Below are positions 40,668 to 63,094 of a stretch of 64,000 bases of DNA, one piece after another; the stretch's first letter is position 1, and every line of letters starts with the position of its first letter. The notes below the pieces were generated by a model. It made no database searches, was not told the origin of the DNA, and was given only the letters and a program-made list of their open reading frames with translations. The stretch lies in NCBI RefSeq assembly GCF_010731875.1, contig NZ_AP022595.1, positions 2,790,001 through 2,854,000 on the forward strand. Direction: 5' to 3'. The position numbers and the translations under genes are program-made. This DNA comes from Mycolicibacterium sarraceniae. GTDB taxonomy: Bacteria; Actinomycetota; Actinomycetes; Mycobacteriales; Mycobacteriaceae.

Positions 40668-41394
40668 CTAGCCGAGGATCCGGTCGGCTTCCCGCTGACC
40701 GCTGAGATGAGCGCCGTGGACGGTGCCGAACCACTCGGGGTTGGTGGCTTCGCCCGCGAACAACAGACGTTCGCCGACCGGCTCGCCCAGCGCGTGCATA
40801 TCGTCAGGGCTGGACCCGACGGCGATGAAACTGTATGAGCCACGGGCGTATTGATCTGTGCCCCACCGGGTCACGATCGATCCGGTGGGGGTTGGCGCAT
40901 CGATGGCAGTAAGCAATTCGGTCACCGCGGACTGATCGGACAGCGATTCGCGCAACCACGGCCTGGCCGCCCCGTAGCCTCACGAGCAGCGGCTTACCGG
41001 CGAACACCAGCCCGTTGGCCAGATCGGTGACCGGTTGGTTGTTGCCGACCAGTCCGATCATCGGGGTGGACTCGGGCCAGAACGGCTTCTCGAAGGCGAC
41101 GACCACCTTGTTGAGCAGTCCGAATCCGAGCTTCTCGATGGCGTGGCACTTGGCCTCGAGAAGCGGTGGGTCGAAGGCGATGCTTCCGCCGATCCGGTCG
41201 CGAGCCTCGACAACGGTGACGCGCACACCGGCGTCGGCCAGTCGCCGGGCCGCCGCCAGGCCGGCGAAGCCAGCGCCGACGATCACGACGTGGTCGCCGC
41301 CCTTCTCATCCGCGCTGCCACATCCTGGGAGCAGAGGCACCGCTGCGAGCGCACCGAAACCCAGCATGAACCCGCGCCGCGCGACCGAACGCAT
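40668..41394 (-). pseudogene. Deleted and frameshifted flavin monoamine oxidase
   Basis: The 5' end (41394) codes for a twin-Arg-like leader (RSVARRGFMLGFGALAAVPLLPGC) and the FAD fold VVIVGAGFAGLAAARRLADAGVRVTVVEARDRIGG. It then jumps straight to the late substrate-domain segment GLLNKVVVAFEKPFWP. Around 40,955 the frame shifts, and the C-terminal GERLLFAGEATNPEWFGTVHGAHLSG continues to 40668. A whole enzyme has ~440 residues; only ~240 codons remain. Both the internal deletion and the frameshift make it non-functional. Confidence 0.8.
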
Positions 41395-42048: not shown

Positions 42049-43659
42049 ATGCAGGCCACCTTGGCTAACGCTCATCCGACGAATGGCACCTCTGTAGCGC
42101 TGCTTGATCGACCCGACGTCGGCGACGCACTGGCAGCAATTCGGAGGCCGGTTGCCGTCGTGAACTCGGTCCAGGGGCCGCGCGCTGTACTCCTCGACGG
42201 CGGCGGGGAACTTACGCCCGAGGTCCTGAGCCAGGGCCTGCTTGCCGTCTTGCCGGCGATCTATCCCGAATGGCTCGGCGAGCGTAGTTTCACCGCGACC
42301 CACGGTGTGCGATTTCCCTATGTCGTCGGCGAGATGGCCCGCGGCATCGCGACGCCGCAGATGACCGTCGAGGGTGTGCGCGCCGGCGTGATGGCGTTCT
42401 ACGGCAGTGCCGGATTGGACCTCGCCACCGTCGAAGCGGGTGTGCTGGAGATTCAGGCCGCCCTGGGCCGGGACTCCGCCGGTTGGGGTGCCAACCTGAT
42501 CCACAACGTCCAGAGCGACGGCGTCGAATTGGCGACCGTCGATCTGTTCCATCGCCTCGGTGTCCGCTACGTGTCCGCGTCGGCGTTCATGCGTCTCACG
42601 CCCGCGGTTGTCCTCTACGCCGCAAAAGGTCTGCGTCGCGACGCGCACGGGCAGGTCGTTCGGGCCGGCCATATCTTCGCGAAGGTCTCCCGCGATGAGG
42701 TCGCCCGCCAGTTCCTCTCGCCCGCACCGGAAGCGATGCTGAGCACGCTGGTCGCCGAAGGCCGTCTCACCGCCGAGGAAGCCGCGCTCGCGAGCCGGAT
42801 CCCGATTGCGGAAGACATCACCGCCGAAGCGGATTCGGGCGGGCATACCGACAACCGCGCGCTGACCGTGCTGCTTCCGCGACTGATCAGCCTGCGCGAC
42901 GACATCGCCGCCGCCTACGGCTACTCAGTTCTGCCGCGCGTCGGAGCAGCCGGCGGGCTGGGTACCCCGGCCGCCGTCGCCGCCGCGTTCGCCGCAGGCG
43001 CGGCCTATGTGTTGACCGGTTCGGTCAACCAGTCGGCGGTGGAGAGTGGGTTGTCACCCGACGCGCGAACCCTGCTGGGGCTGGCGGAATCCACCGATGT
43101 GGCGATGGCGCCCGCCGCCGATATGTTCGAAATGGGCGTGACCGTGCAGGTTCTCAAGCGCGGCACGATGTTCGCCCAGCGCGGGCACCGCCTGGCTGAC
43201 TTCTATCGCCGCTACTCCTCTCTCGAGGAAGCCCCTGCGGAGGAGTTGGCGAGCCTCGAAAAGACGGTCCTCGGGCGCAGTGTCGCCGACATCTGGGCGG
43301 ATACCGAGGCGTTCTTCGCCAAGAGCGATCCACACCAGGTGGAGCGCGCTGCGGCGGACCCCAGACATCGCATGGCCCTGGTATTTCGCTGGTACCTGTT
43401 CACGGGTTCGCAGTGGGCGCGCGACGGTAACACTGAACGCCGCGCTGACTACCAGATCTGGTGTGGTCCAGCGATGGGAGCCTTCAACCAATGGGTGCGG
43501 GGAAGTTTCCTCGAGCCGGTGGAGGCGCGCACGGTTCGCCAGATCGCCCTCAATCTCCTTGAGGGCGCGGCAACTGTGACACGAGCCGGGCAGCTTCGCG
43601 CTTCGGGCGTCGCGATGCCGCCTTCCGCCTTTGATTTCCGTCCACGTCCCCTCGGATAA
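42049..43659 (+). CDS. PfaD-type trans-acting enoyl reductase
   Basis: A 536-aa FMN TIM-barrel protein of the 2-nitropropane-dioxygenase-like PfaD family, the trans enoyl reductase of polyunsaturated fatty acid synthases. Typical blocks are IATPQMTVEGVRAGVM, GWGANLIHNV, RYVSASAFMRLTPAVV, the ADSGGHTDNR motif and RVGAAGGLGTP with AYVLTGSVNQ. The length matches free-standing PfaD. I use the ATG at 42049; the frame is open back to a GTG at 41905, but that stretch lies in IS21 end sequence. It reduces selected enoyl-ACP intermediates, so it helps decide which double bonds survive. The next gene starts 8 bp downstream. Confidence 0.9.
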   Translation: MQATLANAHPTNGTSVALLDRPDVGDALAAIRRPVAVVNSVQGPRAVLLDGGGELTPEVLSQGLLAVLPAIYPEWLGERSFTATHGVRFPYVVGEMARGIATPQMTVEGVRAGVMAFYGSAGLDLATVEAGVLEIQAALGRDSAGWGANLIHNVQSDGVELATVDLFHRLGVRYVSASAFMRLTPAVVLYAAKGLRRDAHGQVVRAGHIFAKVSRDEVARQFLSPAPEAMLSTLVAEGRLTAEEAALASRIPIAEDITAEADSGGHTDNRALTVLLPRLISLRDDIAAAYGYSVLPRVGAAGGLGTPAAVAAAFAAGAAYVLTGSVNQSAVESGLSPDARTLLGLAESTDVAMAPAADMFEMGVTVQVLKRGTMFAQRGHRLADFYRRYSSLEEAPAEELASLEKTVLGRSVADIWADTEAFFAKSDPHQVERAAADPRHRMALVFRWYLFTGSQWARDGNTERRADYQIWCGPAMGAFNQWVRGSFLEPVEARTVRQIALNLLEGAATVTRAGQLRASGVAMPPSAFDFRPRPLG

Positions 43660-43667
43660 GGGTCACC

Positions 43668-46600
43668 TTGACTGACAACACGCACCAGCCCTCTGCCACT
43701 CCGATCGCGGTGGTCGCCATGTCGGCGATCTACCCGGGCGAGTCGGGGCTCACCGGCTTCTGGCGCACCATCACCGCGGGCCGCGACGCCATCAGCGAGG
43801 TACCGCCCTCGCACTGGTTGATCGAGGATTACTTCGACGCCGACCCGAAAGTGCCGGACAAGACCTACTGCAAGCGCGGCGGCTTCATCGACCCCGTGGA
43901 CTTCGATCCGGTGAAATTCGGCCTGCCCCCCAACGCATTACCGTCGACTGATACCGGGCAGATCCTCGCGCTGATCGCCGCCAGGCAGCTGCTCGACGAG
44001 GTGCAGCGCGAAGGTGTGGAGGTTGACCTGGACCGGGTCGACGTGGTGCTCGGGGTTGCCTCGACCACCGAGCTGGTGGTGCAGATGGGTTCGCGGATGC
44101 AGCGGCCGATTTGGCGTAAAGCACTGCTGGAGAACGGCTTACCCGAGGACGAGGCAGACGAGATCTGCCAGGACATCGCCGATCACTATGTGCCGTGGCA
44201 GGAGAGCACGTTCCCCGGTCTGCTCGGCAATGTCATCGCCGGTCGCGTGGCTAACCGTCTCAACCTCGGTGGCGCCAACTTCGTCACCGATGCCGCCTGC
44301 GCCAGTTCGCTTTCGGCGCTGCAGTCGGCGTTGCACCGGCTGTATCTGCACGAGTCGGATGTGGTGCTAACCGGTGGGGTCGACGCACTCAACGACGTGA
44401 TGATGTACATGTGCTTCTCCAAGACACCGGCATTCTCGGCGACCGGTGACTGCCGGCCGTTCTCCGCGGGTGCCGACGGCACGATCATCGGTGAGGGTGT
44501 CGGCATGGTGGCGCTCAAGCGCCTCGCCGATGCCGAGCGCGACGGGGACCAGATCCATGCGGTTATCTGCGGCCTGGGTTCCTCCTCCGACGGCCGCGCG
44601 TCCAGCGTCTACGCGCCGCGGTCCGAGGGGCAGGCCAAGGCACTCCGGCGCGCCTACGAGCGCGCCGGCTACGACCCGTCGACGGTCGAACTCGTCGAGG
44701 CGCACGGCACCGCGACCAAAGCCGGCGACGTCGCCGAATTCGCGGGGCTGAAGTCGGTATTCACCGACAGCTCGGCCCGAATCGCACTAGGGTCGGTGAA
44801 ATCCCAGATCGGCCATACCAAGGCAGCCGCCGGTGCCGCGGGGCTCATCAAAGCCGTTCTTGCGCTGCAGCATTCGACGCTCCCGGGCACTCTGAAGGTA
44901 GATCGCCCCAACCCTTCAATGGGGATCGAGGAGTCACCGTTCTACGTCAACGCGCAGACCCGGCCCTGGGTGCGTAAGAGCGACCAGCCCCGACGGGCAT
45001 CGGTCAGCTCCTTCGGTTTCGGCGGCAGTAACTTCCACGTGACACTGGAGGAATACCAGGGCGAGCATCGCGCCAAGCGGCTGCGGGCTCTGCCCAGTGA
45101 GCTTGTGGCGCTCAGCGCACCGTCGGAGGCCGAGCTGCAGAAGCGGGCCGCAGACATCGTGACGGCCGCCCGCTCCGGCGAGAGCCTTGCCCGTATTGCT
45201 TTCGAGGCCGCCGAGGAATTCGATGCGTCCCAGCCCGCACGAGCGGGGCTGGTTGCCACCGATGCCGAATCGCTTGGCGTCGTAGCTGAACGGCTGCGCA
45301 GCGCGCTGGCCGACGGTAAGGCCGCTGAGCTCAAGGACGCGAACATCGCCGTCGGTTTCGGACCGGCACGCGAAGGTAAGACGGCATTCCTGTTCCCGGG
45401 CCAGGGCAGCCAGTATGTCGGTATGGGGGCCGATCTTGCGCTGAGCTTCCCGGAAGCGCTCGCGGTGTGGGATGGGCTCGAAGGTGATCTGATCGAGTTG
45501 GCCGGTGTTGTCTTCCCGGAGCCCGCCTTCGAAGCGTCCGCGGCAGACGCGCAGAAAAAAGAGCTCACCGCGATGGCCAACGCGCAGCCGGCCATCGCCG
45601 TAACCAGCCTGGCTCAGCTTGCGCTGCTTGATGTCCTGGGTGTCGGTGCCACGGCGGCCGCCGGCCACAGCTTCGGTGAGGTCACCGCGCTGGCCGCGGC
45701 TGGCGTCCTGCCCACCGAGCGTCTCGTCGAGACTGCGCGGATGCGCGGCACGCTGATGAACGAAGCGGGCCAGGGCAAGGACGGCGCGATGCTGGCGGTC
45801 TCGGCGACCGCCGATGAGGTGCGCGCGTTGCTGGCCACCCAACCGGAATCGGGATCGCTGGTCATCGCCAACGACAATGCGCCCAAGCAGGTGGTGCTGG
45901 CCGGCTACGACTCCGATATCGGATGGGCACAGAACGCGGCAAAAGCGAAGGGCTGGACGGCGGTTCGGTTGCCGGTGGCCTCGGCATTCCACTCCGAGAT
46001 CGTGGCCGCGAGTTCGGCACCGTTGACGTCGTACCTGAAGACGCTGAAGATCGGGCAGCCGAATTTCCCGGTCTACGCGAACGCCACGGCGCAGCCGTAC
46101 GGTGAGGACGTTGCCGAACAACTCGGCAATCAGGTTGCGCAGATGGTGCGCTTCCGAGAAATGATCGAGACGATGTCGCGCGACGGGGTGACCCGCTTCG
46201 TGGAGGTTGGACCCGGACGGGTTCTGACCGGTCTTGTCGGGAAGATCCTCGGCTCGGCACCACACATCGCGGTGGCGCTGGACGACCCGAAGGCCGACGG
46301 GCTCCGCGGCTGGCATCGGGGACTGGCCGCGCTGGCCGCCGACGGTGTGGCACTCGACCTCGTCGCGCTATTTGATCACTACGCCGAGCCGGCGAAATTC
46401 GTTGTGCCGCCCAAGCATGCCGTCAAGGTCGGCGGAGCTAACCTTGGTAAGCCGTACCCGCCCGCGGACGGCAAGGTTTCGATCACGCCCAAGCGCACGC
46501 GGGTGAGCGCGCCGAGCGCACCGCTGGCAGTGGCATCTGCATCGGTAGCGAAACAAGCACCCGCGCCGGCGGTACAGCGGATGGAGACACCCGCGGGCTC

Positions 46601-49600
46601 CGCGCCCGCGCCGGTGGCCCAAGCCCAGCCGTCGGTGGTTCAGCAGCAGGTGCCGGTTCAGGCACAGGTTGCTGAAGCTATTGCGGTTCCGGTGTCGGGC
46701 GATGTGTGGAGCATCATCGACAGCATTCAGAAAGAGACCGCCGAGCAGCACCAGCGCTATATGGACGTGGTGACCCAGAGTCACCAGGCTTTCCTGGACA
46801 TGTCCACTCAGATGATGGCGCATATCGTGGGCGAGTCGGCAACCGTTGCGCAGGTGCCTCGAGCGCTGGCAGCCGTTGCGCCGCAACAGGTTGCCGCGCC
46901 CGCGGTAGCCGCCCCGGTCGTCGCACCCCCGGTGGCCGTCGCACGGGTTGCCGCACCCACCCCGGTTGCCGCACCCGCCCCGGTTGCCGCGCCCGTCGCG
47001 GTTGCCGCACCTGAGGCCGTGGCGCCCGCACCTGTTGCCGCTCCGGTGATTGCGCCGGCTGTGTCGGCTGGTGCTGTGGTGTTGGAGATTGTTTCGGAGA
47101 AGACGGGTTATCCGGTTGACATGCTCGGGTTGGGCATGGAGATGGAAGCCGAGTTGGGGATCGATTCGATCAAGCAGGTCGAGATTTTGGCGGCGTTGCA
47201 GGCGAAGTTCCCTGGCGCTCCGGAGATTCCGGCCTCTGAGCTGTCCGGGTTGCGGACGCTGCAGGATGTGGTGGATACGATCGCGGACTTTGCGCCTGCG
47301 GTATCTGCACCTGCGGCTGTCGGCGCGGTAGCGCCGGCTGTGTCGGCCGGTCCGTCGGCTGGTGCGGTTGTGCTGGAGATCGTGTCGGAGAAGACGGGTT
47401 ATCCGGTTGACATGCTCGGGTTGGGCATGGAGATGGAAGCCGAGCTGGGGATCGATTCGATCAAGCAGGTCGAGATTTTGGCGGCGTTGCAGGCGAAGTT
47501 CCCTGGTGCTCCGGAGATTCCGGCCTCTGAGCTGTCCGGGTTGCGGACGTTGCAGGATGTGGTGGATACGATCGCGGACTTTGCGCCTGCGGTAGCTTCT
47601 CCTGCCGCTCCGGTGATTGCGCCGGCTGTGTCGGCTGGTCCGTCGGCTGGTGCGGTTGTGCTGGAGATCGTGTCGGAGAAGACGGGTTATCCGGTTGACA
47701 TGCTCGGGTTGGGCATGGAGATGGAGGCCGAGCTGGGGATCGATTCGATCAAGCAGGTCGAGATTCTCGCAGCGCTGCAGGCCAAGTTCCCTGGTGCTCC
47801 GGAGATTCCGGCCTCCGAGTTGGCGAACCTGCGCACCCTGCAGGATGTCGTCGACACCGTCTCCGGATTCGCTGCACCTGCCGCTGCCACAGCACCTGCT
47901 GCGGTCGCGGAGCCATCGGTTTCGGCTGGTGCTGTGGTGTTGGAGATTGTGTCGGAGAAGACGGGTTATCCGGTTGACATGCTCGGGTTGGGCATGGAGA
48001 TGGAAGCCGAGCTGGGGATCGATTCGATCAAGCAGGTCGAGATTTTGGCGGCGTTGCAGGCGAAGTTCCCTGGCGCTCCGGAGATTCCGGCGTCGGAACT
48101 CGCGAACCTGCGCACTCTGCAGGATGTGGTCGATACGGTTTCCGGGTTCGCCGCCGACGGTCGCACCGAACAGGCTGCCGCAGTTCAGCATTCAGCGCCT
48201 GAGCCGGAGCTGGTCGCTCTGTCCTGCACCGAGGCGGAGTTTCGGGCTGCCCCGCCCAGCGGGCTGGCGATGGCAGGCCTGCGTGACGGCGTCGTTTTCA
48301 TCACCCGTGAAGACCCTGCCTTCGCCGATGCCCTCCAGCGCTCGCTGAGCTCCCGGGGGATCCAGACGCGGACGGTCGATGAGGCTCCCGCCGAAGCGGG
48401 TGCCGTCATCAGCCTGGCCGCGCTGGCCCCGGCGCGCACACCGGCAGACTGTGTCGCGGTCCATGTGAGTGCGTTTCACGCGGCCCGCAGCGTCGCTAAG
48501 AGCAGCGCGCCGACGCGGCTGTTCGTCACCGTCCAGTCGACCGGTGCCCGGTTCATCGCGGCGGACGTCCCGGTCGGTGTTGCGAGCCTGGTGAAGACCG
48601 CCGGCTGGGAATGGCCCAACGCTTCGGTACGGGCCGTCGATATGGAAACCCTCGACGCCGAACGGCTGACGGCCGAGCTGCTGGCAGGTGGCAGCGGTAT
48701 CGAGGTCGCCCTGCGTGCTGATGGCACCCGGCTGGTTGCCGTCGACGACATCGAATCCTTAGTCGGCGAAGGGGAGGCGATCAGTGTCACCCCGGGCGGC
48801 GTGGTCGTCGTCACCGGTGGTGCTCGTGGCGTCACGGCGGAGTCGGCCCTGGCGCTGGCCAAGCGTTATGGCCTGCGGCTGGCTCTCCTCGGACGCACGC
48901 CCCTGCGTGAGTTCACCGGCGACGAGCCGACGGGTACCACCGCAGCCGAGATCGCCACCGCGTTGGCAGCATCGGCACGGGCTCGTGGCGAGCAGCTCAG
49001 CCTCTCGCAGGCCCGGGCGCAAGCCGAAAGCCTGCTCGCCGAGCGGGAGGTTCGCGCCACCCTGTCGACCGCAGAGCGGCAAGGCACCCCGGCCCGCTAC
49101 TTCGCGGCCAGCATCACCGACGACGCCGCACTGCGCAGTGTGCTCGACGAGGTTCGGCAGAACTTCGGTCCGATCGTCGGCGTCGTCCACGGTGCCGGCG
49201 TACTGGCCGACAAGCGCCTCGAAGACCTCGACGACGATGGGTTCGTCAAGGTGTTCACCACCAAACTCGTTGGTGCAGAAGCATTGCTGGATGCAACGGC
49301 AACCGACGAACTGCGCTTCATCTCGCTGTTCTCCTCGATCGCGGCACGGGCCGGAAATCCCGGGCAGTCCGCGTACGCGTCGGCCAATGCGGCCCTGGAG
49401 GCCATCGCGGCCCGGGAAGCCGCTCGCCGTAACGGCGAGTGCGTGGTGCGTGCGTTTGGCTGGGGCCCCTGGGATGGCGGGATGGTCGACGCGACGTTGA
49501 AGAGCCGGTTCCTCGCCGGCGGTGTGGGTGTCATCCCGATCGCTGAGGGTGCCCAGTTCTTCGCCGACCATGCGTTGTGCCGGTCGTCGGCCACCGCGGT

Positions 49601-50417
49601 CGTGGTAGCCGCGCCGGCCGAGCCGCGGCTGCGCGCCACCCGCCTCGACTGGGATGTGTCGGCCGAAAACCTGCCGGTGCTCACCGACCATCAGGTCCGT
49701 GGCCAGGTGGTGGTGCCGGTGGTGATCGCGCTGGACGCGATACTGCGTGCGGCACGCGGTGTCGTTGCCGATGCGTGCCCGGTGGTCCGTGACTTCCAGG
49801 TGCTGTCGGGAGTCACGTTCACCGAAGGTGAACGGCAAGCTCTCACCATCGATTTCGAACCCGTCGGTTCGTCCTACACCGTCTCGATCACTGACGGTTC
49901 GGGTCGGGCGCGTTACCGCGCCACGGTGGACACCGCGGCCGTTGCGGCCCCGGAACTGTCGGTTCCGCAGGTGTCAGGATCGGCGTGGCCGCTCGGCGTC
50001 GACGAGGCATACGCCGGCCCGCTGTTCCACGGGCCGCAGTTTGCCGTCATCGAGGCGCTCGACACGTTCGGAACTGAAGGTGGCAGCGCCACGCTGAAAG
50101 GCTTGGGCGATCTCGGCTGGCCGCAGAACGGCTGGGCGATCGACGCTGCCGGCATCGATGGCGGCCTGCAGCTGGGCATCGTGTGGGCGAGCGCGCAGGG
50201 ACGTCCCCTGGTGCTGCCGATCCGGATCGGCCGGGTTGTGCTGCACCGGACGTTCGCTGACGCCAGTATCGCGCGTTGCCGGTTGGCCGCGCACCCGGTG
50301 AACGATAAGCGGGTCGATTTCGATATCGCGTACGAAACCTCCGACGGCGCACTCGTCGCGACCCTCGAGGGTGTGGAGTTCTACGCTGCGGGCGGCGCCG
50401 CGGACACGCCGGCGTGA
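43668..50417 (+). CDS. Pfa-type megasynthase: KS-AT-4xACP-KR-DH (PfaA-like)
   Basis: A 2249-aa iterative synthase. Order: KS ~10-455 with Cys211 (DAACASSL), His346 (EAHGTAT) and the GHTKAAAG His; AT ~570-860 with Ser668 (GHSFGE) and a SAFHS specificity segment that fits malonyl; an Ala/Pro linker with a helical HQAFLDMSTQ segment (~1040); four ACPs with phosphopantetheine Ser1167, Ser1264, Ser1360 and Ser1453 (each GIDSIKQVEI); KR ~1710-1985 (TGGARGVTAE, FSSIAARAG, SAYASANAA); and a C-terminal PKS-type DH ~2000-2245 with HxxxGxxxxP (DHQVRGQVVVP) and DGGLQ. The start is TTG (43668) after an AAGGG site. This is the PfaA/Pfa2 architecture. No release domain is present. Confidence 0.93.
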   Translation: MTDNTHQPSATPIAVVAMSAIYPGESGLTGFWRTITAGRDAISEVPPSHWLIEDYFDADPKVPDKTYCKRGGFIDPVDFDPVKFGLPPNALPSTDTGQILALIAARQLLDEVQREGVEVDLDRVDVVLGVASTTELVVQMGSRMQRPIWRKALLENGLPEDEADEICQDIADHYVPWQESTFPGLLGNVIAGRVANRLNLGGANFVTDAACASSLSALQSALHRLYLHESDVVLTGGVDALNDVMMYMCFSKTPAFSATGDCRPFSAGADGTIIGEGVGMVALKRLADAERDGDQIHAVICGLGSSSDGRASSVYAPRSEGQAKALRRAYERAGYDPSTVELVEAHGTATKAGDVAEFAGLKSVFTDSSARIALGSVKSQIGHTKAAAGAAGLIKAVLALQHSTLPGTLKVDRPNPSMGIEESPFYVNAQTRPWVRKSDQPRRASVSSFGFGGSNFHVTLEEYQGEHRAKRLRALPSELVALSAPSEAELQKRAADIVTAARSGESLARIAFEAAEEFDASQPARAGLVATDAESLGVVAERLRSALADGKAAELKDANIAVGFGPAREGKTAFLFPGQGSQYVGMGADLALSFPEALAVWDGLEGDLIELAGVVFPEPAFEASAADAQKKELTAMANAQPAIAVTSLAQLALLDVLGVGATAAAGHSFGEVTALAAAGVLPTERLVETARMRGTLMNEAGQGKDGAMLAVSATADEVRALLATQPESGSLVIANDNAPKQVVLAGYDSDIGWAQNAAKAKGWTAVRLPVASAFHSEIVAASSAPLTSYLKTLKIGQPNFPVYANATAQPYGEDVAEQLGNQVAQMVRFREMIETMSRDGVTRFVEVGPGRVLTGLVGKILGSAPHIAVALDDPKADGLRGWHRGLAALAADGVALDLVALFDHYAEPAKFVVPPKHAVKVGGANLGKPYPPADGKVSITPKRTRVSAPSAPLAVASASVAKQAPAPAVQRMETPAGSAPAPVAQAQPSVVQQQVPVQAQVAEAIAVPVSGDVWSIIDSIQKETAEQHQRYMDVVTQSHQAFLDMSTQMMAHIVGESATVAQVPRALAAVAPQQVAAPAVAAPVVAPPVAVARVAAPTPVAAPAPVAAPVAVAAPEAVAPAPVAAPVIAPAVSAGAVVLEIVSEKTGYPVDMLGLGMEMEAELGIDSIKQVEILAALQAKFPGAPEIPASELSGLRTLQDVVDTIADFAPAVSAPAAVGAVAPAVSAGPSAGAVVLEIVSEKTGYPVDMLGLGMEMEAELGIDSIKQVEILAALQAKFPGAPEIPASELSGLRTLQDVVDTIADFAPAVASPAAPVIAPAVSAGPSAGAVVLEIVSEKTGYPVDMLGLGMEMEAELGIDSIKQVEILAALQAKFPGAPEIPASELANLRTLQDVVDTVSGFAAPAAATAPAAVAEPSVSAGAVVLEIVSEKTGYPVDMLGLGMEMEAELGIDSIKQVEILAALQAKFPGAPEIPASELANLRTLQDVVDTVSGFAADGRTEQAAAVQHSAPEPELVALSCTEAEFRAAPPSGLAMAGLRDGVVFITREDPAFADALQRSLSSRGIQTRTVDEAPAEAGAVISLAALAPARTPADCVAVHVSAFHAARSVAKSSAPTRLFVTVQSTGARFIAADVPVGVASLVKTAGWEWPNASVRAVDMETLDAERLTAELLAGGSGIEVALRADGTRLVAVDDIESLVGEGEAISVTPGGVVVVTGGARGVTAESALALAKRYGLRLALLGRTPLREFTGDEPTGTTAAEIATALAASARARGEQLSLSQARAQAESLLAEREVRATLSTAERQGTPARYFAASITDDAALRSVLDEVRQNFGPIVGVVHGAGVLADKRLEDLDDDGFVKVFTTKLVGAEALLDATATDELRFISLFSSIAARAGNPGQSAYASANAALEAIAAREAARRNGECVVRAFGWGPWDGGMVDATLKSRFLAGGVGVIPIAEGAQFFADHALCRSSATAVVVAAPAEPRLRATRLDWDVSAENLPVLTDHQVRGQVVVPVVIALDAILRAARGVVADACPVVRDFQVLSGVTFTEGERQALTIDFEPVGSSYTVSITDGSGRARYRATVDTAAVAAPELSVPQVSGSAWPLGVDEAYAGPLFHGPQFAVIEALDTFGTEGGSATLKGLGDLGWPQNGWAIDAAGIDGGLQLGIVWASAQGRPLVLPIRIGRVVLHRTFADASIARCRLAAHPVNDKRVDFDIAYETSDGALVATLEGVEFYAAGGAADTPA
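47068..48153 (+). repeat. Four tandem ACP-coding repeats
   Basis: Four ~280-290-bp units lie in the Pfa2 gene, with phosphopantetheine serines 97, 96 and 93 codons apart. Long stretches of the units are identical at DNA level, including silent positions. Units 1-2 share the tail SGLRTLQDVVDTIADF, and units 3-4 share ANLRTLQDVVDTVSGF, so the array looks built by stepwise duplication or kept uniform by recombination. Confidence 0.95.
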
Positions 50418-53400
50418 GCGGGTTCGACCCGGTCGCGATCGTCGGACGCAGTTGTGTCCTGCCCGGTGCAACCACACCGGAGGAGCTGTTCGACGCCTCG
50501 CTGGGTGGCCGCTGCCTGCTGACGCCCACGCCACGCGATGGTTGGCGCGGTGTGGATCCCGGCCAGCTGCTGGCCAGCGACAAACCAGGTCTGCGGGTGT
50601 CGTCGGCGACCGGCGGCTATGTGGAGACTTCCTTCGACTTGACCCAATTCGCCTCGCGGATAACTGATTTCGACCGGCTCGATCCGATCGTGCCGTGGCT
50701 TGCTCAGTGTGCGCAGCAGGCACTGGGCGGGCCGCTCGCGGCACCGCGGACCGGTCTGATCGTGGGCAACCTGTCGTATCCGAGCACCATGGGCACCGCG
50801 TTCGTCGAGGCCGTCTGGACGGGCAACGGCAACGACGATCCACGCAACCGGTTCTCCTCCGGGCTGCCGGTGCACCTGGTCGCCGGTGCGATGGAGATGA
50901 ATGGCCCGGTGTATGCGCTCGACGCTGCCTGCGCGTCATCGCTCTACGCGATCAAACTGGCGTGCGACGCCCTGCACGACGGCGACGCCGACGTCATGCT
51001 CGCGGGCGGGGTCAACGGCTCGGACGACCTGTTCTTGCATCTTGGCTTCACCTCGCTGCAGGCGCTGAGCCCGTCGGGCCGGTCTCGTCCCTTCCACGCC
51101 GAGGCCGATGGTCTGGTTCCCGCACAGGGCGCAGCCCTGGTGGCTCTGAAGCGCCTCGACGACGCCGAGCGCGACGGCGACCACATCCTCGGCGTGATCA
51201 TGGGTGTTGGGCTCTCCAACGATGGCCGGCAGAGCGGCTTCTTGGCACCCGCGGTGGGTGGTCAGACCCGCGCTATGATCTCGGCGCTCGAGCAGGCGGG
51301 GCTGACCCCTGCCGATATCGACTACGTGGACTGCCACGCGACCGGCACACCGCTGGGTGACGCCACCGAGCTGCAGAGCATCGCGGCCGCCTACGGTGAC
51401 GTCCCGCTGAAGCTGGGCGCGCTGAAAGGCAATCTCGGTCACACCATCACGGTGTCCGGCGCGGCAAGCCTGGTGAATGTGTTGTCCGCCATGCAGGCGT
51501 CGACGTTTCCGCCGACGTTGTGCGAGAAGCCGACCGAGAAGCTGGCCGGCACACCGTTCACGTTGGTCACCACGCCCACGCCATGGGAAGGACCGGTCAA
51601 GCGCGCCGCAGTCAGCAACTTCGGGTTCGGCGGCAACAACGCGCACCTGATCGTCGAGAACTACCGGGGGCCACGCGGTTCGGTCGCGCGGCAGCGGCCG
51701 CCCACCGACGAGATCGTCATCTGCGGAATCGGTGTGGTCACTGGCGACGCACGCGGTGCCAACGCATTCCGTCGCCGTGTGCTGGGACCCGAGGCGCAGC
51801 CCACTCCGCTCGACGCCGTCGAGCTTGACCTTGCGGGCCTGGGGTTCCCGCCAAAGGAGCTCGCCGGCAGCCTGAGTCAGCAGACGGTGATGCTGGCCGC
51901 GGCGGGGCAGGCATTGCGCTATGTGACGCTGGACCCGGACCGTACCGGGGTGTTCGTCGGTATGGGCTGCGATGCCATGATCGGTCGCCAGCGGCTGCGG
52001 GTGCTGAACACCGACAATGACCAGTGGCTGGCGGCGAACAAAGAGGCCGCGCCGCAGCTGACCGCTGACGGTGTCATCGGAACCATGCCCAACATCCCCG
52101 CCAATCGCATCCACGCCCAGCGTGACTTTCGCGGGTTCGGCTTCACCGTCTCCACCGAAGAGCTGTCGGCGATCACCGCGCTGCAGATCGCTATTCGGGC
52201 GTTGCGGTACCGAGAACTCGACACCGTCGTCGCCGGTGGGGTCGATATGTGTTGCGAGCCAGCACATTCACGCGCGGCCGACGCACTGGACGCCGATACG
52301 AGCATCGCGCACGGTGACGCGGCCGTGGCGTTCGTCCTGAAGCGCCGCGCCGACGCGGAAGCCGCGGGCGACGAGATCGTCGCCGTCATCGATACCGACG
52401 ACGAGCCGATCGCGACCGATCCGAACTTCGCGGCGCAGCGGATCGGCCGCACCCACGCGGCCAGCGCTGCTGTGGAGATCGCCGCCCGCGCAGAGGCCGT
52501 GCGGGCGCGGGTGCGGGTGGATCGTGCCGGTGCGCAGCCGGCACCGGGCGGTACCACTGCGGCGGTGTGGGTGGAGGCGCTGGGTGGACGTGCCGATGGC
52601 ATCACGGTGTCCGCGGCCGGTGCGCCAAAGCCACTGGCGCTTGGCGTCGTTCCGGTCTCGGAGCGCTACGCCGGTTCAAGCAGGGCCGATCTGTTGAGCC
52701 GGCTGCACCGCGGCGAACCAGGTGGCAGCGGGCCGGTGCGGTGTTCGTTGGTGGGGGTCAGCCAGGCCGGAGTGGACACGCTTCGCCAACAGGCCGTGCA
52801 GCGGCTCGAACGTGGCGAGGCACCGGTCGTTCCGGGCATCGCGTTCGCCGAAGCCCCGACCACCGGCGAACTTGCCTTCACCTTCACGGGCGCAGCAGCG
52901 GCCTACCCGGGTGCCGGGCGTGAGCTGTTGTTCGCGTGGCCCGAGATCGGCGATGCACTCACCCAACGCTTCTCCGGCGTCGGCGATTTGGCCCGTGCTC
53001 TGCACGGCGACGGGATCACCACCCTGGACCCACGCACCCAGCTGACCGGTTGTGCTCTGGTCTGTCAGTCGCAGGCGGAGTTCTCCCGGACCGTTCTCGG
53101 CCTCAAACCTACTGCTGCGATTGGTCTTTCGTCAGGCGAGACCAACTCGCTGATGGCCTTTGGGGTCTGGAGCGACCTGGAACCGATGCTCGATGAGATC
53201 GAGGCGTCGGGCATGTACGGCGATGAGCTGACCGGCGAATGTCGGGTGGCGGCGGCCTACTGGGGGCTCGGTGACCAACCGGCCCCGTGGGAGTGCTGGC
53301 GTATCACCGCACCCCGGCCGCTCGTCGATGCGGCGCTGGCGCTCGAACCGCGCGCCTATATGACAATTGTTCAGGCGCCGGATGATTGCGTCATCGGCGG

Positions 53401-56400
53401 AGATCCCGCAGCGTGCCGACGGGTGATCGACGCCGTTCCCGGCGCGACTGCGATACCCCTTGGTCTGGACATGGTCATCCACTGCGAAGCGATGGCGCCG
53501 TTCGCCGACACCTGGCGCAACATTCACACGCGAGAGACGCACGAGGTGCCGGATATCCGGTTCTACACCAACGCTGTCAACCGCGCCTATGTGCCGACCC
53601 GGGAAGCCGCCGCCGAGGCGATCACCCGGCAGGCCCTCGAGCCGATCGACTTCCCCGCGACGGTTCTCCAAGCATGGGAAGACGGGGTCCGTATCTTCGT
53701 CGAGCACGGGCCGCGCGCCATCTTGACGCAAGCGGTGTCGAAAATCCTTGGTGATCGCCCACATCTGGCGGTTGCGCTGGATCCCCAGGAACGCCGTGGG
53801 CTGCGAGCGCTGGCCGAAAGTGTTGGCAAGCTCTGGGTTTACGGGCTACCGGTCGACGTCAGCGCATTCGACGCGCGCATTCAGCAATTGCGTGACCAAG
53901 GTCAGGCGGCACCCTCGGGGAACACTCGCAAGCTGACGCTGGCCGCTCATTGGCCCGATATCGTCCCGGCGCCTGAAGCGCCCAAGAATGTCTCGACGCC
54001 GCAAGCGTCCAGGATTGAGAGTGCACCGCCCATGCCCGAAGTGGACCACGGAAGTGTTCAAGTCATGCCGCCCGCGCCGGCCCAGCTCGCATCGCTGGTC
54101 ATCGCCCAGGAGGTAGTCGTCCAAGCGGCGCCGGAGACGACGACCGTGATCGCCAGGCCGGTCGCCCCCGCCGCCGCCGTGGTCAGCGATCAGACGGCCG
54201 CAGCGCTGAATCTGGTTGCCTCGGTCAGCAATGCGCATTCGGCGTTCCTGGACCGGCAGGCAGAAGCCCACCAGTCCTTCCTGAAGTCGCGCGGTGATCT
54301 CCTCGCGTTGGTGTCGGGACGACGGGGATCAGCGCCGGCGGTGGTCGCTAGTGCGCCAGCGGCGTATGCCCCAGCACCGATGCCCGTTGCGAGCGCCCCT
54401 GCGGCCGCACCGGTGGCGAGTGTGCCGACACCGGTGGCACCAGCACCGAGTGCGCCACCTCCTCCGCCGCCACCTCCTGCGCCGCCGGTGACGCCCGCGC
54501 TGAGCAGGCGTTCAGCGAAGACCGAAGAGCCGCTCTGGTCCCGTGCGCAGCTGGAAATCCTTGCCGGCGGCAAGGTTTCGGAGGTTATGGGGCCCAAGTT
54601 CGCCGAATACGACCAGTACGAGCGCCTGGTTCGGATGCCGGAGCCGCCGCTGCTGCTGGCCGATCGAGTCATGAGCATCGAGGGTGAACCCGGCACCATG
54701 GGCACCGGTCTCATCGTCACCGAGACCGACGTCGACCCGAATGCGTGGTACATCCACAACGGCCGGATGTCACCGGGTGTGGTGATCGAGAGCGGCCAGG
54801 CCGACCTGCTGCTGGCCTCGTGGCTGGGCGCGGATTTCAGTAACCGCAGCGAGCGCGTGTACCGCCTGCTCGGCTGTGATCTGACGTTCATGGGTGAGCT
54901 GCCCAAGGGCGGTGACACGCTGCACTATGAGATCCACATTGACGGTCACGCGAAAACCGGTGATACGCGGCTGTTCTTCTTCCATTACGACTGCTACATC
55001 GGCGACCGGCTGATGATCTCGGTGCGCAACGGGCAAGCCGGCTTCTTCTCCGATGCCGAGCTTGCCGAGTCGGACGGGGTCCTATGGGACGCCGCCGACG
55101 ATGCGCCGCGCGATGGTGCCATTCGTGACGAGCCGCCCGTCGTCACCCAGAAGCGTTCCTTCAGCCGGGATGATCTCGATGCGTTCACTGACGGCCACGC
55201 GTTCCGGTGCTTCGGTGCCGGTTTCGAGCGGGCGGCCGCCCATACCCGGACGCCGTCGCTGCCAACCGGCAAACTGCGGCTGATCGACGAGATCGCCGAA
55301 TTCGATCCGAACGGCGGACCCTGGGGCCGCGGCTATCTGCGCGCGACCGCCGCGGTGCCCAAGGACATGTGGTTCTACGACGGGCATTTCAAGAATGATC
55401 CCTGCATGCCCGGGACACTCATGGCGGATGCGGCTACCCAGGCCCTGTCCTTCGCGATGGCTGCCTACGGCTTCACCATCGAGCGTGACGGCTGGCGGTT
55501 TGAGCCCGTCCCGGATGACATGGCGCGGTTCGTGTGCCGCGGTCAGGTGACTCCCGACGCCGATCACATGCTCGACTACGAGGTGTTCATCGAGGAGATC
55601 ATCGACGGCCCGACGCCGATCGTCTTCGCGGCATTGCTGTGCCGCAGCGACGGTTTCAAGGTGTTCCACGCCCGGCGTTTCGGCATGCGTCTGGTGCCGG
55701 ACTGGCCGATGCCTCCCGGTGCGCCCGGTCCGGTGCAGATCCTGGCCGGAACCAAAGATGTTCGCGGCGATCAGGGCGCACTGCTGGCCTGCGGGCGTGG
55801 CATGCCGTCGGATGCGTTCGGAGCGCTGTACGCGCCGTTCGACGGAACGCGCCGCGCACCACGGCTACCCGATGAGCCCTACCACTTCATGTCGCGGGTG
55901 CTCAGCGTGTCCAGCCCGCCCGGGGTGCCGACCAAGGGCGGCACCGTCGTCGCGGAATACGACGTGCCGGCCGGCGAATGGTATTTCGGGGACGCCCACG
56001 TTGACGCGGTACCGATGCCGGTGCTGATCGAGATCCTGCTGCAGCCGTGCGGCTGGCTGTCCTCGTACAACGGCTTCGCCGCCAATCGTCCCGACGATGT
56101 GGTGTTCCGCAACCTCGACGGCGGTGAGGTCGTGCAGCGCCGTCCCGCTCGCGTCGGGACCCTGCGGGTGACCTCGACACTGGAACGCTTCGCCGACGGC
56201 GCCGGCTCGACGATCGTATTCTTCGACGTCATCTGCACTCAGGACGACGAGGTCGTCATGACGATGAAGACAGCGTTCGGATTCTTCAGCCCTGAGGCGC
56301 TGAAGAATCAGGTGGGCCTGCGGACGGACCCGGCTGCGCTGGAAGCACTTTCGGCAGCAGCCCCGGTCGCACTGTCCTACCGGGCTGAGGAACTCGACGG

Positions 56401-56860
56401 CGCTCCATGGCTGGACCAGGGCCGCCTCCAGGTTCTCGACCGGGTCAACTTTTGGCCGGGTGGGGGAGCAGCCGGCCTGGGCCGGCTGGTCGCCGAGTAC
56501 GACGTCACTCCCGAGGCGTGGTTCTTCAAGGCGCACTTCTTCCAGGATCCGGTACAGCCCGGTTCGCTCGGCCTGGAGGCCATGCAGCAGGCGGCCCGGG
56601 CGTTGGCCCGGCTGTCCGGTCATGCCCCCGCCGGTGACGGTTACGCATTCGAGCCCGTCGCCCTGGACCAGGTGTTCAGCTGGAAGTTCCGCGGTCAGGT
56701 GACGCCGACCAACAAGCGCACTCGATCCGAGATCGAAGTCCTGTCCGTGGAACGTGATGACAGCGGAGTGCTGGTTGTGTTTGACGGCCGGTTCTGGTGC
56801 GACGATCTGTGCATCTACGAGACGCGCGGGATGGGTGTGCGCGTCGTGGCGCGGTCATAA
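50414..56860 (+). CDS. Pfa-type megasynthase: KS-CLF-AT-multiple hotdog DH (PfaC-like)
   Basis: A 2148-aa partner synthase. Order: KS ~5-420 with Cys173 (DAACASSL), DCHATGT and GNLGHT; a chain-length factor ~440-720, a KS-like fold in which the active Cys is replaced (TVSTEELSA, apparently Glu); AT ~820-1110 with GLSSGE (Ser906), PfaB-like; a Pro/Ala linker with [11 protein letters not shown]; then four FabA-like hotdog units ~1380-2148. Units 2 and 4 keep [15 protein letters not shown] and [15 protein letters not shown]; unit 1 (NGRMSPG) lacks the His and unit 3 is altered ([10 protein letters not shown]). GTG start, overlapping the previous stop (GTGA). It resembles myxobacterial Pfa3 without its C-terminal acyltransferase. 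Confidence 0.92.
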
Positions 56861-56867
56861 TAGTGCG

Positions 56868-58735
<1,868 letters not shown>

Positions 58736-58745
58736 CAGGGGAGCG

Positions 58746-60182
58746 ATGACGGAGCTCGGCAAGACGCTGCGCGCGGTCAGCACGGCCATCCCGGGTCTGA
58801 CCATCTGGGATCTGCCGGTTCACGGCGACAACCGCGGCTGGTTCAAGGAGAACTGGCAGCGCGAAAAAATGGTGGCCGCCGGAATGCCCGATTTCGGGCC
58901 TGTTCAGAACAATGTGTCGTTCAACGAATCGGCAGGCACCACGCGCGGTATCCACGCCGAACCGTGGGACAAGTACATCTCGGTCGCCACCGGACGGATC
59001 TTCTGCGCGTGGGTCGACCTGCGCGATGGCCCGACGTTCGGGACGGTGGTTACTGCCGAGATAGACCCCTCGCGTGCGGTCTTCGTTCCGCAGGGTGTTG
59101 GCAACGGATTCCAGACGCTGGAGCCCAACACTGCCTACACCTATCTGGTCAACGATCACTACTCACCGGACGGCGTCTACACCTCGCTGAACCCGGGTGA
59201 CGCGACCATTGCGATCGACTGGCCCATCCCCCTGGAGCGAGCAGAATTGTCGGCCAAGGACCGGGCCCAGGGGCCGCTGTCCGAGGTCGTCCCCGTCCAG
59301 CCACGCAAGATCTTGGTTGTCGGTGCCAACGGGCAACTGGGCCGGGCGCTGCGCGAGTCCTACGCCGGCGTTTCGCATGTCGAGTTCGTCGACTTGCCTG
59401 AATTCGATCTCACTGCAGGCGATCTCGGTTCGGCGCGCCCGTGGCAGGAGTACAGCACGATCATCAACGCCGCGGCCTTCACCGCGGTGGACGTAGCCGA
59501 GACCGCCGAGGGGCGTGTTGCCGCGTGGGCCGCCAACGTCACCGGCGTCGCGAATCTGGCACGGGTCGCATCCGAGCACAGGCTGACTGTCGTGCACGTT
59601 TCGACTGACTATGTGTTCGACGGCACGTCAACGCGGCCCTACCGCGAGGACGATCCGATGGCCCCGCTCGGCGTGTACGGGCAGACGAAAGCTGCCGGCG
59701 ACCAGGTCATCGCTACGGTAGCACGGCACTACATCTTGCGTACCTCGTGGGTGATCGGCGAGGGCCGAAACTTCGTGCGCACCATGCTTTCTCTGGCCGA
59801 GAAGGGTGTCGATCCGGCGGTGGTCGACGACCAGATCGGCCGCCTGACGTTCACCACCGAGCTGGCCCGGGCGATCCGCCACCTGCTCTCCAGTCGTGCG
59901 CCGTACGGGACGTACAACGTGACGGGGGCAGGCCCGGATACCTCATGGGCCGATATTGCGCGACGCGCGTTCGAGCTGGCGGGCCACGATCCGCGCCGGG
60001 TGACTGGTGTATCGACCGAGCAGTACTTCGGCACGGCCACGAATCCGGTGTCGCCGCGGCCCCTCCGCGGTGTTCTGGACCTGGCGAAAATCGAGTCCAC
60101 CGGATTCGTGCCGGCCACCGCTGACGAGACGTTGGTGAATTACGTTGCGGCAGAAGTCCGCGAGGCGCGAGTGACCAGCTAG
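58746..60182 (+). CDS. rmlCD: Fused RmlC-RmlD: 4-keto-6-deoxyglucose 3,5-epimerase / 4-reductase
   Basis: A 478-aa two-domain enzyme. Residues ~1-185 are the cupin epimerase Rml[25 protein letters not shown] (catalytic His) and [10 protein letters not shown]. Residues ~190-478 are the reductase Rml[34 protein letters not shown] and the Tyr/Lys in YGQTKAAGD. Together they finish dTDP-L-rhamnose. M. tuberculosis has separate rmlC and rmlD; fusions are annotated in some other Actinobacteria such as corynebacteria. The ATG at 58746 follows AGGGGAG. The stop TAG overlaps the convergent mmpL stop. Confidence 0.95.
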
Positions 60183-63094
60183 CCCGACGACTTGGGGAGC
60201 GCGGCGGTGACCGCCTCCTCGCGCTCCTCCGGTGCCGACAGCAGGGCGCGCACCGCCGGACGGGGCCCGGAGTCGCGAAGCATGAAGCTGGCGGGACGCG
60301 GACGAACAACCTGCGGCCACCAGAACCACCGGCCGAGCAGCGCGGCGATCGACGGTGTCATGAACGATCGCACCACTAGGGTGTCGAACAGCAATCCCAG
60401 AGCGATGGTGGTGCCGACCTGGCCGATGATCTGCAGATCGCTGGCCACCATCGCCCCCATCGTGAAGGCGAACACCAAGCCCGCGTTGGTCACGACCTTG
60501 CCGGTGCCGCCCATCGCCCGGATTATGCCGGTCTTGATGCCAGCGCCAAGTTCCTCTTTCATTCGGGACACCAGCAGCAGGTTGTAGTCGGAGCCGACGG
60601 CCAAGAGCACGATCACCGACATGGGTAGCACCATCCAGTGCAGTTTGATGCCGAGGATGTATTGCCATATCAGCACCGATAGCCCGAATGACGCGCCCAG
60701 CGAGAGCGCGACCGTGCCAACGATGACCAGCGCGGCAATGAAGCTTCGCGTGAGTACGAGCATGATCACGAAGATCAGGCAGAGCGCACCGACGACCGCG
60801 ATCAAAAGGTCGTATTTGGAACCATCCTGAAAGTCCTTGTATGTCGATGCTGGACCGGCGATATAAATCTTGGCGCTGGACAGGGGAGTCGTTTTGAGCG
60901 CTTCGCTGGCCGCAAGCTTGATCTTGTCGATACGGGCGATGCCCTCAGGCGTTGAGGGATCACCCTTTTGGGAAATGATGAATCGGGCTGATTTGCCGTC
61001 GGGAGATAAGAAGGAACTCATCGCCTTCTGGAAGTCTGCGTTCTGAAACACCTCTGGCGGCAGATAGAACGAATCGTCATCCTTTGCTGAGTCGAATGCC
61101 TGTCCCATCGTGTTGGTGTTCTCGGTCGTGTCGTCCAAGACGCCAAAGCTGCCGGACATGGTGCTGACCATGGTTTGCATCATTGTCCGCATCTGTTCTT
61201 GGACCGCGATCAGTTTCGGCATCTGCTCGAGTATCTGCGGCATCAGGTCGTCCATACTTACCGCATCGGCCAAGAGCTCTTTCATTTTGTCGGAGAGCCC
61301 ATCGATGCCGTCGAGCGCGTCATACAGCGACCGAATCGACCAACACATCGGAATGTCGTAGCAGTGCGGCTCCCAGTGCAAATAATTACGAATGGGTCGG
61401 AAAAAATCATCGAACAGCGCGACGTAATCCCGCATATCGGAGACCAGGGCAGTCAGGTCTCTTGTCACGCCAATCGAATTATGGGTGATGGCATTGAGCT
61501 GTTTTTGATATTCGTACATATGCTTCATCAGGACGATTTGCCTGGACAGCATGTCCACCATCTTGCGCATATCATCGACGCGGCCCTTGATGAATTTCAT
61601 GCTGTCTTGCATGCCCGCGTTTTGCATACCAATGAGAAAAGGTATCGACGTATGTTCGATTGGCGTCCCCTCGGGCCGGGTTATGCCCTGTACCCGCGAA
61701 ACTCCATGAACCTTGAAAATCGCCTTGGCAAGTCTGTGCAATATAAGAAAGTCTGTCGGGTTTCGCATATCGTGATCAGTTTCGATCATCAGAATTTCGG
61801 GCAGCATTCGCGACTGGCTGAAGTGGCGATCCGCGGCCGCGTACCCCGCATTGGCCGGCACATCGCCCGCCACGTACGCACGATCGTTGTAGCTGGTGAC
61901 ATAGCCGGGCAGTGCGATCAGTCCGATCAGGGTTATTGCCAGCGCCGCGGTGAGTATCGGCACCGGCCAGCGGACGATCGCAGTGCCGATCCTTCGCCAC
62001 CTGCCAGCCTTGATCCGGTGCTTGGGGTCAGCGAAGCCGAAACGGCCGCCGACCACCAATACCGCCGGAATCAGCGTGAGCGCGACCACGACAGCGACGA
62101 GCAATCCGATGGCAGACGGCACGCCGATGGTCTGAAAGATGGGCAGCCGGGTCAGACGCAGGCACAACATGGCTCCGGCGATAGTCAAACCGGAGCCCAA
62201 CACCACCGGCGCCACACTGCGGAATGTTGTGTAGTAGGCCGTTTCCCTGTCTTCGCCGGCTTGTCGCGCCTCCTGGTAGCGCCCGAAGAAAAATATCCCG
62301 TAATCTGTTCCGGCAGCCATTGCGAGCGCCACCAGTAGGCTTATCGCAAACGTCGATAGTGAAATGATCTCACGATCAGCGAGAAACGCGACGATACCCC
62401 GCGCGATGAGTAATTCGATACCAACCGTGAGCAATAACATGAGCACGGTCATAATCGAACGATAGACAATGAGTAATACAATGAAAATGATGAGTCCGGC
62501 GAGGGCTGTCATCTTCAGGATGGACCTGTCACCGGCGAGTTGCATATCACTGGCAAGCGCCGCCGGCCCGGTGACATACGCTTTAACGCCGGGTGGGGGT
62601 GGCGTCTGTTCAACGATATGACGGATTGCGGCAATAGATTCGTGGCCCAGCGTGGTGCCCTGGTCGCCGGCCAAATTCAGTTGTGCGTATACGGCTTTTT
62701 GGTCAGGGCTTTGGGCGGCCCCCGCGGTGATTCGATCTCCCCACAGATCCTGAATGTGCTCGACGTGCGCCGGATCACTCCGCAAGTTGCGAATCACCGT
62801 GTCGTAGTACGTGCGGGCTTCGTCCCCGAGTGGCTGTTGCCCTTCCACTAAGAGCATCGCGAAGCTATCGGAGTTGGACTCTTGGAAATTCGCGCCAATA
62901 CGCTGCATGGCCTGCACTGCCGGGGCATCGCGGGGCGCCAATGGGACGGAATGGTCTCGGCCTACAGTCTCCAGCCACGGGACTTTGAACGTCACGAGCA
63001 ACGTCAAGGCGACCCAGCCAAGAATGATGAGCACAGATGACTTGCGAATCACCCGCGCGAAAGCGGCCTTGTCCTGCACTTGTGGATCCGCCAC
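60179..63094 (-). CDS. MmpL-family lipid/glycolipid exporter
   Basis: A 971-aa RND-type inner-membrane transporter. There is an N-terminal helix, a first periplasmic domain (~40-190), helices 2-6 with the [14 protein letters not shown] block, a large second periplasmic domain (~400-750), and helices 8-12 with [17 protein letters not shown], the MmpL proton-relay Asp-Tyr pairs. MmpL proteins move finished or nearly finished cell-envelope lipids to the periplasm. The GTG at 63094 abuts the stop of an upstream paralogue with no gap. Parts of the gene are visibly richer in A/T than neighbours. The lipid cargo is inferred to be the Pfa/rhamnose product. Confidence 0.92.

Follow-up and report, generated by a model that had tools for sequence, protein, structure and literature searches.

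Hybrid gene clusters that join a polyunsaturated fatty acid (PUFA)-type synthase (Pfa) to a polyketide synthase (PKS) and a nonribosomal peptide synthetase (NRPS) have been published for three mycobacteria (PMC13291983). In the part of that study concerned with them, M. fortunisiensis TNTM28 and Mycolicibacterium sp. CBMA 234 belong to clade IV, to which M. simulans is related. A Pfa set of the same class lies in the window analyzed here, a 64,000-nucleotide stretch of contig NZ_AP022595.1 (Mycolicibacterium sarraceniae) that comprises bases 2790001-2854000 of a single-contig 4.83-Mb genome of the genus Mycobacterium. Its three genes, pfaD, pfaA and pfaBC, head a glycopeptidolipid (GPL)-like locus of about 85 kb that extends past the window end. 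PfaBC of the window is 70% identical to that of TNTM28 and 69% identical to those of CBMA 234 and M. simulans, and the Pfa, monomodular PKS, FAAL/CAL, NRPS and ICMT elements described for the clade IV hybrids are present here too, the last as an ICMT-like stretch with 64% identity (PMC13291983). In contrast, that survey took genes within 20 kb, a rule that the present locus would fail with its Pfa genes and first NRPS gene 45 kb apart, and the rml, MmpL/S and glycan genes that lie between Pfa and NRPS here are unmentioned for the mycobacterial clusters in its section 7. Thus, mycobacterial Pfa hybrids are themselves known, and the new point is the context, a Pfa set at the head of a GPL-like locus. 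In this context, Pfa probably supplies the N-acyl chain of a GPL-like lipopeptide through the starter condensation (C) domain of the first NRPS, NRPS1, as an alternative to a PKS of about 3700 amino acids (aa).

Other described systems resemble separate parts of this locus. As far as their gene content is described, the GPL locus (PMC1885439) and the GL8P locus of M. abscessus (PMC11978893) share with it mmpS-mmpL-mmpL, rml, glycosyltransferase, O-methyltransferase, MbtH-like and NRPS genes. Unlike both, the present locus has a 1+3-module NRPS that ends E-C-T, and its likely lipid supplier is Pfa. For the lipid, the table of the GPL locus lists pks, fadD23 and papA3 (PMC1885439), and the term 'PUFA' has 0 occurrences in the available text of the GL8P paper (PMC11978893). 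In the heterocyst glycolipid and zeamine/fabclavine pathways, as outlined in PMC13291983, a Pfa-type chain is joined to a separately made head group, but the head group here would be a predicted glycosylated tetrapeptide. No paper joining glycopeptidolipid with PfaA in mycobacteria was found in the open-licence PMC literature, where a search for Mycobacterium, nonribosomal peptide, lipopeptide and pfaD returned PMC13291983 alone.

The three pfa genes are tightly packed on the + strand. The enoyl reductase gene pfaD runs from 41905 (GTG) or 42049 (ATG) to 43659, and its product scores 607.8 bits against TIGR02814 (cut-off 449.25). It is the sole copy above that cut-off in its genome, and the closest PDB structures are those of PfaD (6lkc, 474.7 bits, and 4yx6). 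The next gene, pfaA (43668..50417), encodes a protein of 2249 aa with the order KS-AT-ACP-ACP-ACP-ACP-KR-DH, supported by TIGR02813 (1428.6 bits, cut-off 1010.1), Pfam, motifs and a KS tree. Its frame shares 4 bases with that of pfaBC (50414..56860), whose product of 2148 aa consists of KS, CLF, AT and tandem FabA-like hotdog dehydratases according to Pfam, motifs and the same tree. Pfam identifies KS, AT, four PP-binding stretches, KR and PKS_DH_N in PfaA, and KS, a second ketoacyl-synt stretch that corresponds to CLF, and three FabA-like stretches in PfaBC. The PfaBC AT is weak in Pfam (23.2 bits, below the cut-off of 32.7), and the fused protein falls short of the PfaB family model TIGR02816 (48 bits against a cut-off of 144.3).

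The key motifs are present in both large proteins. PfaA carries DAACASS, EAHGTAT and KSQIGHT in its KS, GHSFG in its AT, four GIDSI serines spaced 93-97 aa apart in its ACPs, SS..Y in its KR and LTDHQV in its DH. PfaBC carries DAACAS, HATGT and KGNLGHT in its KS, GLSSG in its AT, and two hotdog motifs of 11 and 10 residues. The PKS-type DH of PfaA, the FabA-type motifs of PfaBC and the enoyl reductase are compatible with double bonds in the product. A Pfam/NCBIfam search of the three proteins at E <= 0.001 gave no match to a PPTase, thioesterase or terminal AGPAT family, and the final FabA-like stretch of PfaBC extends to residue 2137 of 2148, which indicates the lack of a terminal AGPAT domain. 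The ER / KS-AT-ACPn-KR-DH / KS-CLF-AT-DH logic is shared with the terrestrial myxobacterial pfa1-pfa2-pfa3 and marine pfaABCD sets. Unlike those sets, the present one has no detected AGPAT and is linked to NRPS and glycosylation genes.

The set lies well beyond chance because of its 2249- and 2148-aa frames, the recurrence of the PfaBC C-terminus in 39 of 396 genomes of the genus and low dN/dS ratios. These ratios were 0.08-0.18 in 17 of 21 gene pairs (three pfa genes in each of seven named relatives), the pairs being those with a full or near-full frame on a fetched contig and including the broken pfaBC frame of M. litorale. A tree of 176 KS domains, obtained by a quick method with midpoint rooting after omission of rows shorter than 370 aa and of loci L003 and L006, resolved PfaA-KS (71 rows, support 99), PfaB-KS (93 rows, support 100) and PKS (12 rows, support 100). 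The window PfaA KS falls in the PfaA clade and the PfaBC KS in the PfaB-KS clade, both apart from type I PKSs, in a tree that covers KS rather than CLF domains and whose references are fetched relatives rather than the named Shulse-Allen types. The class A KS rows, class A being the PfaBC class of the window, form one clade with two alphaproteobacterial metagenome-assembled genomes (MAGs) beside them. This clade includes genome G049 and M. simulans, as judged from the present tree. In the section of PMC3098273 on type L Pfa, pfaD stands first and pfaBC is fused, and mycobacteria receive two mentions in that paper, in its introduction and references. Overall, the sequence-level evidence confirms pfaD-pfaA-pfaBC as a predicted intact Pfa-type synthase set. 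A complete set with this domain order, its active-site residues and no terminal AGPAT was also what a sequence-only reading of the window had proposed. Family cut-offs, Pfam, motifs and the KS tree agree with it, and the contrary placement among ordinary type I PKSs, which that reading had raised, was not borne out for the KS domains.

Pfa genes proved to be widespread in the genus. Among the 396 same-genus genomes used for all genus comparisons, 72 encode PfaD at E <= 1e-60, and 69 of these exceed the family cut-off. The C-terminal 784 aa of PfaBC were matched in 68 genomes, which were sorted by hand into class A (39 genomes, 74-100% identity over this segment) and the other mycobacterial classes, B/C (30 genomes, 45-51% identity), with one genome carrying both. 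Genome G240, which has a truncated pfaBC, and G314 possess PfaD with no match to the PfaBC C-terminus and stand outside the 39. Within the best 80 of 318 stretches, the class A carriers include M. sphagni, M. rhodesiae, M. litorale, M. iranicum, M. parafortuitum, M. gastri, M. simulans, M. vinylchloridicum and M. pinniadriaticum. Within the genus, such a set is therefore nothing unusual. The stand-alone lipid synthase of the sequence-only reading was dropped once the genome beyond the window revealed the NRPS locus. The claim of a likely new product holds in that no product has been assigned, but hybrids of this kind are already in print for three mycobacterial strains, within the scope of PMC13291983.

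Beyond the window, positions are given as window-equivalents (genome position minus 2790000). The locus encodes NRPS1 (101516-106099; C-A-T-E) and NRPS2 (106086-118607; C-A-T-C-A-T-C-A-T-E-C-T). The NRPS2 terminal C-T segment was matched at E <= 2e-205 in 36 of the 39 class A genomes and in 75 of the 357 others (Fisher p 5e-19, a value uncorrected for kinship and with the 75 counted by hand from matches listed to 8e-184). In 25 of the 36, pfaBC and NRPS2 share a contig, 25-104 kb apart with a median of 62 kb, and in 11 they lie on different contigs. Every one of the 10 class A loci read to at least 100 kb contains NRPS1, and tblastn found NRPS2 sequence in the same 10.

From the gene content, domains, synteny, C-domain starter type and Pfa/PKS alternation read in these loci, we infer that Pfa loads the first C domain of NRPS1, and likewise the peptide, its sugars and its export. 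In the proposed pathway, the iterative Pfa-type synthase would build a long acyl chain on the ACPs of PfaA, and this chain would be handed to the starter C domain of NRPS1, about 45 kb downstream. NRPS1 and NRPS2 would then assemble an N-acylated tetrapeptide, epimerised at residues 1 and 4, which glycosyltransferases, TylF-type O-methyltransferases and AT3 acyltransferases would decorate. Export by MmpL/MmpS would yield a GPL-like surface lipid whose tail is made by Pfa. In a sister-locus group, the ~3700-aa PKS upstream of NRPS1 would stand in for Pfa. Because Pfa heads a GPL-like NRPS locus, what it makes is likely to be a glycolipopeptide's acyl tail rather than a free fatty acid like eicosapentaenoic or docosahexaenoic acid.

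The proposal that Pfa feeds the NRPS rests on the starter C domain, the direct adjacency of Pfa and NRPS genes in M. gastri and M. simulans, and the alternation of Pfa and PKS. The best PDB matches of the first C domain of NRPS1 were RzmA-Cs (7c1k, 135.9 bits), the C1 domain of CDA (4jn3, 116.9), EntF (102.5) and ObiF1 (91.4). An internal NRPS2 C domain, used as a control, instead matched DhbF (5u89) at 405 bits and RzmA-Cs at only 49. In the relevant part of PMC7804268, the codes 7C1H/K/P are those of the starter domain of RzmA. By its matches, the first C domain of NRPS1 is therefore of the lipid-loading starter type, with its function predicted from this likeness. In M. gastri, an NRPS of composition C-A-T-TE directly follows pfaBC, and in M. 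simulans pfaBC is followed by an NRPS of composition C-A-T-E-C-A and a second open reading frame (ORF) with a partial A domain, T and reductase. The first C domains of these two and of NRPS1 from 10 genomes form one clade with 100/100 support. Four first C domains from Pfa-less loci form a clade apart from these 12 Pfa-linked ones in a tree without G207, in which NRPS1 is broken; kinship alone could also give this split.

The four A domains and the E domains after the first and the last of them suggest a tetrapeptide with D residues at positions 1 and 4. The codes of A1 and A4, read by eye, look Thr-like, and those of A2 and A3 are not assignable. Classical GPL synthetases make a tripeptide-amino alcohol and end in a terminal reductase. 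The present NRPS2 departs from this pattern: it ends E-C-T, and no thioesterase or reductase was reported in it.

Further support comes from the genes that precede NRPS1. In all five readable Pfa-less loci (G207, G231, G248, G260 and G229), NRPS1 is preceded by the ~3700-aa PKS at a distance of 1.3-2.2 kb that holds one to three small ORFs, whereas none of 10 Pfa loci has a KS-bearing ORF between pfaBC and NRPS1. This PKS is presumed to be Pks12-like from its frame length and its many 66-71% matches in the genus. It occurs at 75% identity or more in 24 of the 396 genomes, and just one of these, G023 (M. simulans type), is of class A, with the PKS far from its Pfa genes. In 14 genomes it shares a contig with NRPS2, at distances of 10-22 kb as measured by hand.

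Several observations weigh against Pfa as the supplier of the N-acyl chain. pfaBC and NRPS1 are not adjacent, being separated by 45 kb and about 35 ORFs. The rml-mmpL-glycosyltransferase-NRPS core also exists without Pfa, and most of the neighborhood needs no Pfa. Since rmlB is the only RmlB gene over the family cut-off in the genome, the rml genes beside pfa probably have a role in the cell wall as well and little bearing on Pfa; for the same reason they were rejected as proof of a dedicated glycolipid operon. The 12 loci read for the classes B/C, 10 of them to 40 kb and the others to 21 kb, contain no condensation-domain ORF, and to judge from these loci a mycobacterial Pfa does not require an NRPS in its vicinity. 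Three of the 39 class A genomes lack a strong NRPS2 match (none in G004, 9e-172 in G218 and 2e-163 in G023). The five Pfa-less loci were themselves chosen for strong NRPS2 matches and long contigs, and a sixth fetched genome, G060, was dropped with its NRPS1 unread. Only 20 of the 75 NRPS2 genomes outside class A possess the ~3700-aa PKS at 75% identity or more, and 55 of the 75, G060 included, have neither it nor a class A Pfa, so strict exclusivity of Pfa and PKS was rejected as a general rule. Lastly, the samples are small, and kinship among the genomes makes the genus counts non-independent.

The alternative that survives best, though it is unlikely, is that Pfa makes an independent lipid, such as a polyunsaturated or hydroxy fatty acid, either free or in the membrane, and lies beside the glycolipopeptide locus by chance. 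Besides the 45-kb gap, the Pfa-less loci and the classes B/C without condensation-domain neighbors, among which class C adjoins a DAGK/PAP2 protein, this explanation draws on two alphaproteobacterial MAGs. These, L145 and L146, carry the nearest non-mycobacterial Pfa set in the tree, which is followed by an apparent ABC-type transporter pair and, farther on, by rpsB-, tsf- and pyrH-like genes, all read by eye; no ORF resembling the locus NRPS lies beside this set within the fetched 26 kb. An independent lipid is harder to reconcile with the NRPS genes directly behind pfaBC in M. gastri and M. simulans, the clade of starter C domains and the Pfa/PKS alternation. The decay of some relatives also bears on it. 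G004 has broken copies of pfaD, pfaA, pfaBC and an mmpL and gave no NRPS2 match, and in G009 both pfaBC and NRPS2 are split. The decay of both parts in G004 is what a shared function would lead one to expect, but the argument is weak, since it is a single case and G056, G322, G283 and G292, in which pfaA or pfaBC was likewise read as split, all keep NRPS2.

It is improbable that the PapA-like protein encoded at 66905-68623 esterifies the Pfa chain onto the glycan or peptide, with the N-acyl chain coming from another source such as the Mas-like PKS and FAAL. In favor of this role, the SHxxxDG motif is invariant in seven aligned PapA-like sequences, the PapA-like model has a predicted condensation/PapA5/WS-DGAT fold, and, at the NRPS end, 8 class A loci have a Mas-like PKS and 6 have FAAL. 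However, homologs of the PapA-like protein occur at E <= 1e-40 in 311 of the 396 genomes and in Pfa-less loci, so it is not tied to Pfa and was rejected as a Pfa-specific partner. In addition, its model is of low confidence, with a pLDDT of 64, the Pfa-less G260 also has, near its NRPS end, a PKS that resembles the Mas-like one at 68%, and the Pfa/PKS alternation is located at the NRPS start. Its assignment to the condensation superfamily came from the fold search alone, a profile search of PDB sequences having given no match. A silent or decaying cluster that makes no product is very improbable: the broken relatives G004 and G009, the truncated pfaBC of G240, the absence here of the relatives' sulfotransferase-like gene and an integrase-like ORF within the locus would fit it, but the three pfa genes are open with their active-site motifs and low dN/dS, and the NRPS1, NRPS2, PKS and FAAL frames are open as well.

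If Pfa does supply the N-acyl chain, a class of enzymes familiar from bacteria of the sea and the soil would be tied to the envelope of mycobacteria. The alternation of lipid donors, Pfa or the ~3700-aa PKS, before the same kind of NRPS is a natural one and offers a testable case for the source of the acyl chain in GPL-type lipids. It points to an uncharacterized surface lipid that roughly one in ten of the Mycobacterium species sampled (39 of 396) would carry. A broader proposal, that Pfa replaced PKS as lipid donor for a whole GPL-like class and gives its outer-membrane glycolipopeptides a truly polyunsaturated, very long tail, is possible but doubtful.

The remaining genes of the locus account for its GPL-type content, in which MmpS-MmpL-MmpL, deoxysugar, glycosyltransferase, O-methyltransferase and NRPS genes are all present together. 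Behind pfaBC follows rmlA (glucose-1-phosphate thymidylyltransferase; + strand; PF00483, 248.7 bits), which likely spans 56868..57737 within the ORF 56754-57737, its likely start being about 7 bases 3' of pfaBC in the junction sequence. A second genome copy above the TIGR01207 cut-off lies at genome position 2029871. Next, rmlB (dTDP-glucose 4,6-dehydratase; + strand) likely spans 57737..58735 within the ORF 57524-58735 and scores 456.5 bits against TIGR01181 (cut-off 365.1); a probable cell-wall gene thus sits inside a secondary-metabolite locus. It is followed by an rmlC-rmlD fusion, a 494-aa ORF (58698..60182, + strand; PF00908 and PF04321) that is the genome's best RmlD-type match, though below the TIGR01214 cut-off. 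On the - strand are an mmpL (60179..63094; PF03176, 739 bits) and a second mmpL, which starts at 63095, reaches the window end at 64000 and continues to window-equivalent 65992, as assigned by profile and locus reading. The mmpS gene at 65971-66591 was named by homology to L066:3808-4416 (PF05423).

After the PapA-like gene come several GT1 glycosyltransferases, an ABC pair, a TylF methyltransferase and GFO/IDH/MocA and GMC oxidoreductases, and further on a nucleotide-sugar dehydrogenase, epimerases, an AT3 acyltransferase, an SGNH protein, methyltransferases and an MbtH-like frame. A PF10118 protein lies after NRPS2 and before a Mas/Pks2-like PKS (120417-126755, - strand; NF041183, 3670 bits, cut-off 2400), which is followed by FAAL (126544-128772; NF004509, 916 bits, cut-off 775). 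Another PKS of the genome, 64% like the locus PKS, is found at genome positions 4288768-4295043 with a condensation-type protein and methylmalonyl-CoA mutase nearby.

This neighborhood recurs in the 18 class A loci read to at least 40 kb. In 16 of them, rmlA, rmlB and rmlCD (at least 72%) lie on either side of pfa, and in 15 an mmpL follows pfaBC or the rml genes, 14 having two and G151 one that is incomplete. The loci of G023 and G240 lack rml and mmpL, and that of G049 lacks mmpL. A sulfotransferase-like gene (L103:16448-17467 and relatives), whose Pfam score is barely at the cut-off, occurs in 11 of the 13 class A loci read to at least 60 kb and is absent from the present locus and from G049.

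Some minor observations concern other Pfa genes and the window itself. The class B/C PfaBC proteins (e.g., L062:5173-12570 and L092:8326-15603) have a C-terminal extension with an NHQVQ[VI]ES motif, read by eye. An AGPAT was considered for this extension and set aside, its possible likeness being by motif only, with no support from Pfam or PDB. Class C Pfa genes adjoin the DAGK/PAP2 protein, and class B genes adjoin pyruvate-carboxylase-type and AMP-binding proteins. In G031 (L093/L094), a PfaD-type gene (542.7 bits) adjoins a 4116-aa ORF, and two KS domains of this locus group with PKS, unlike those of the other classes. Within the window, G+C is 0.58-0.59 across the mmpL genes (60000-64000) against 0.66 for the window, and a 196-aa remnant of a flavin amine oxidase lies at 40804-41394 on the - strand, where four relatives have a protein of 440-472 aa.

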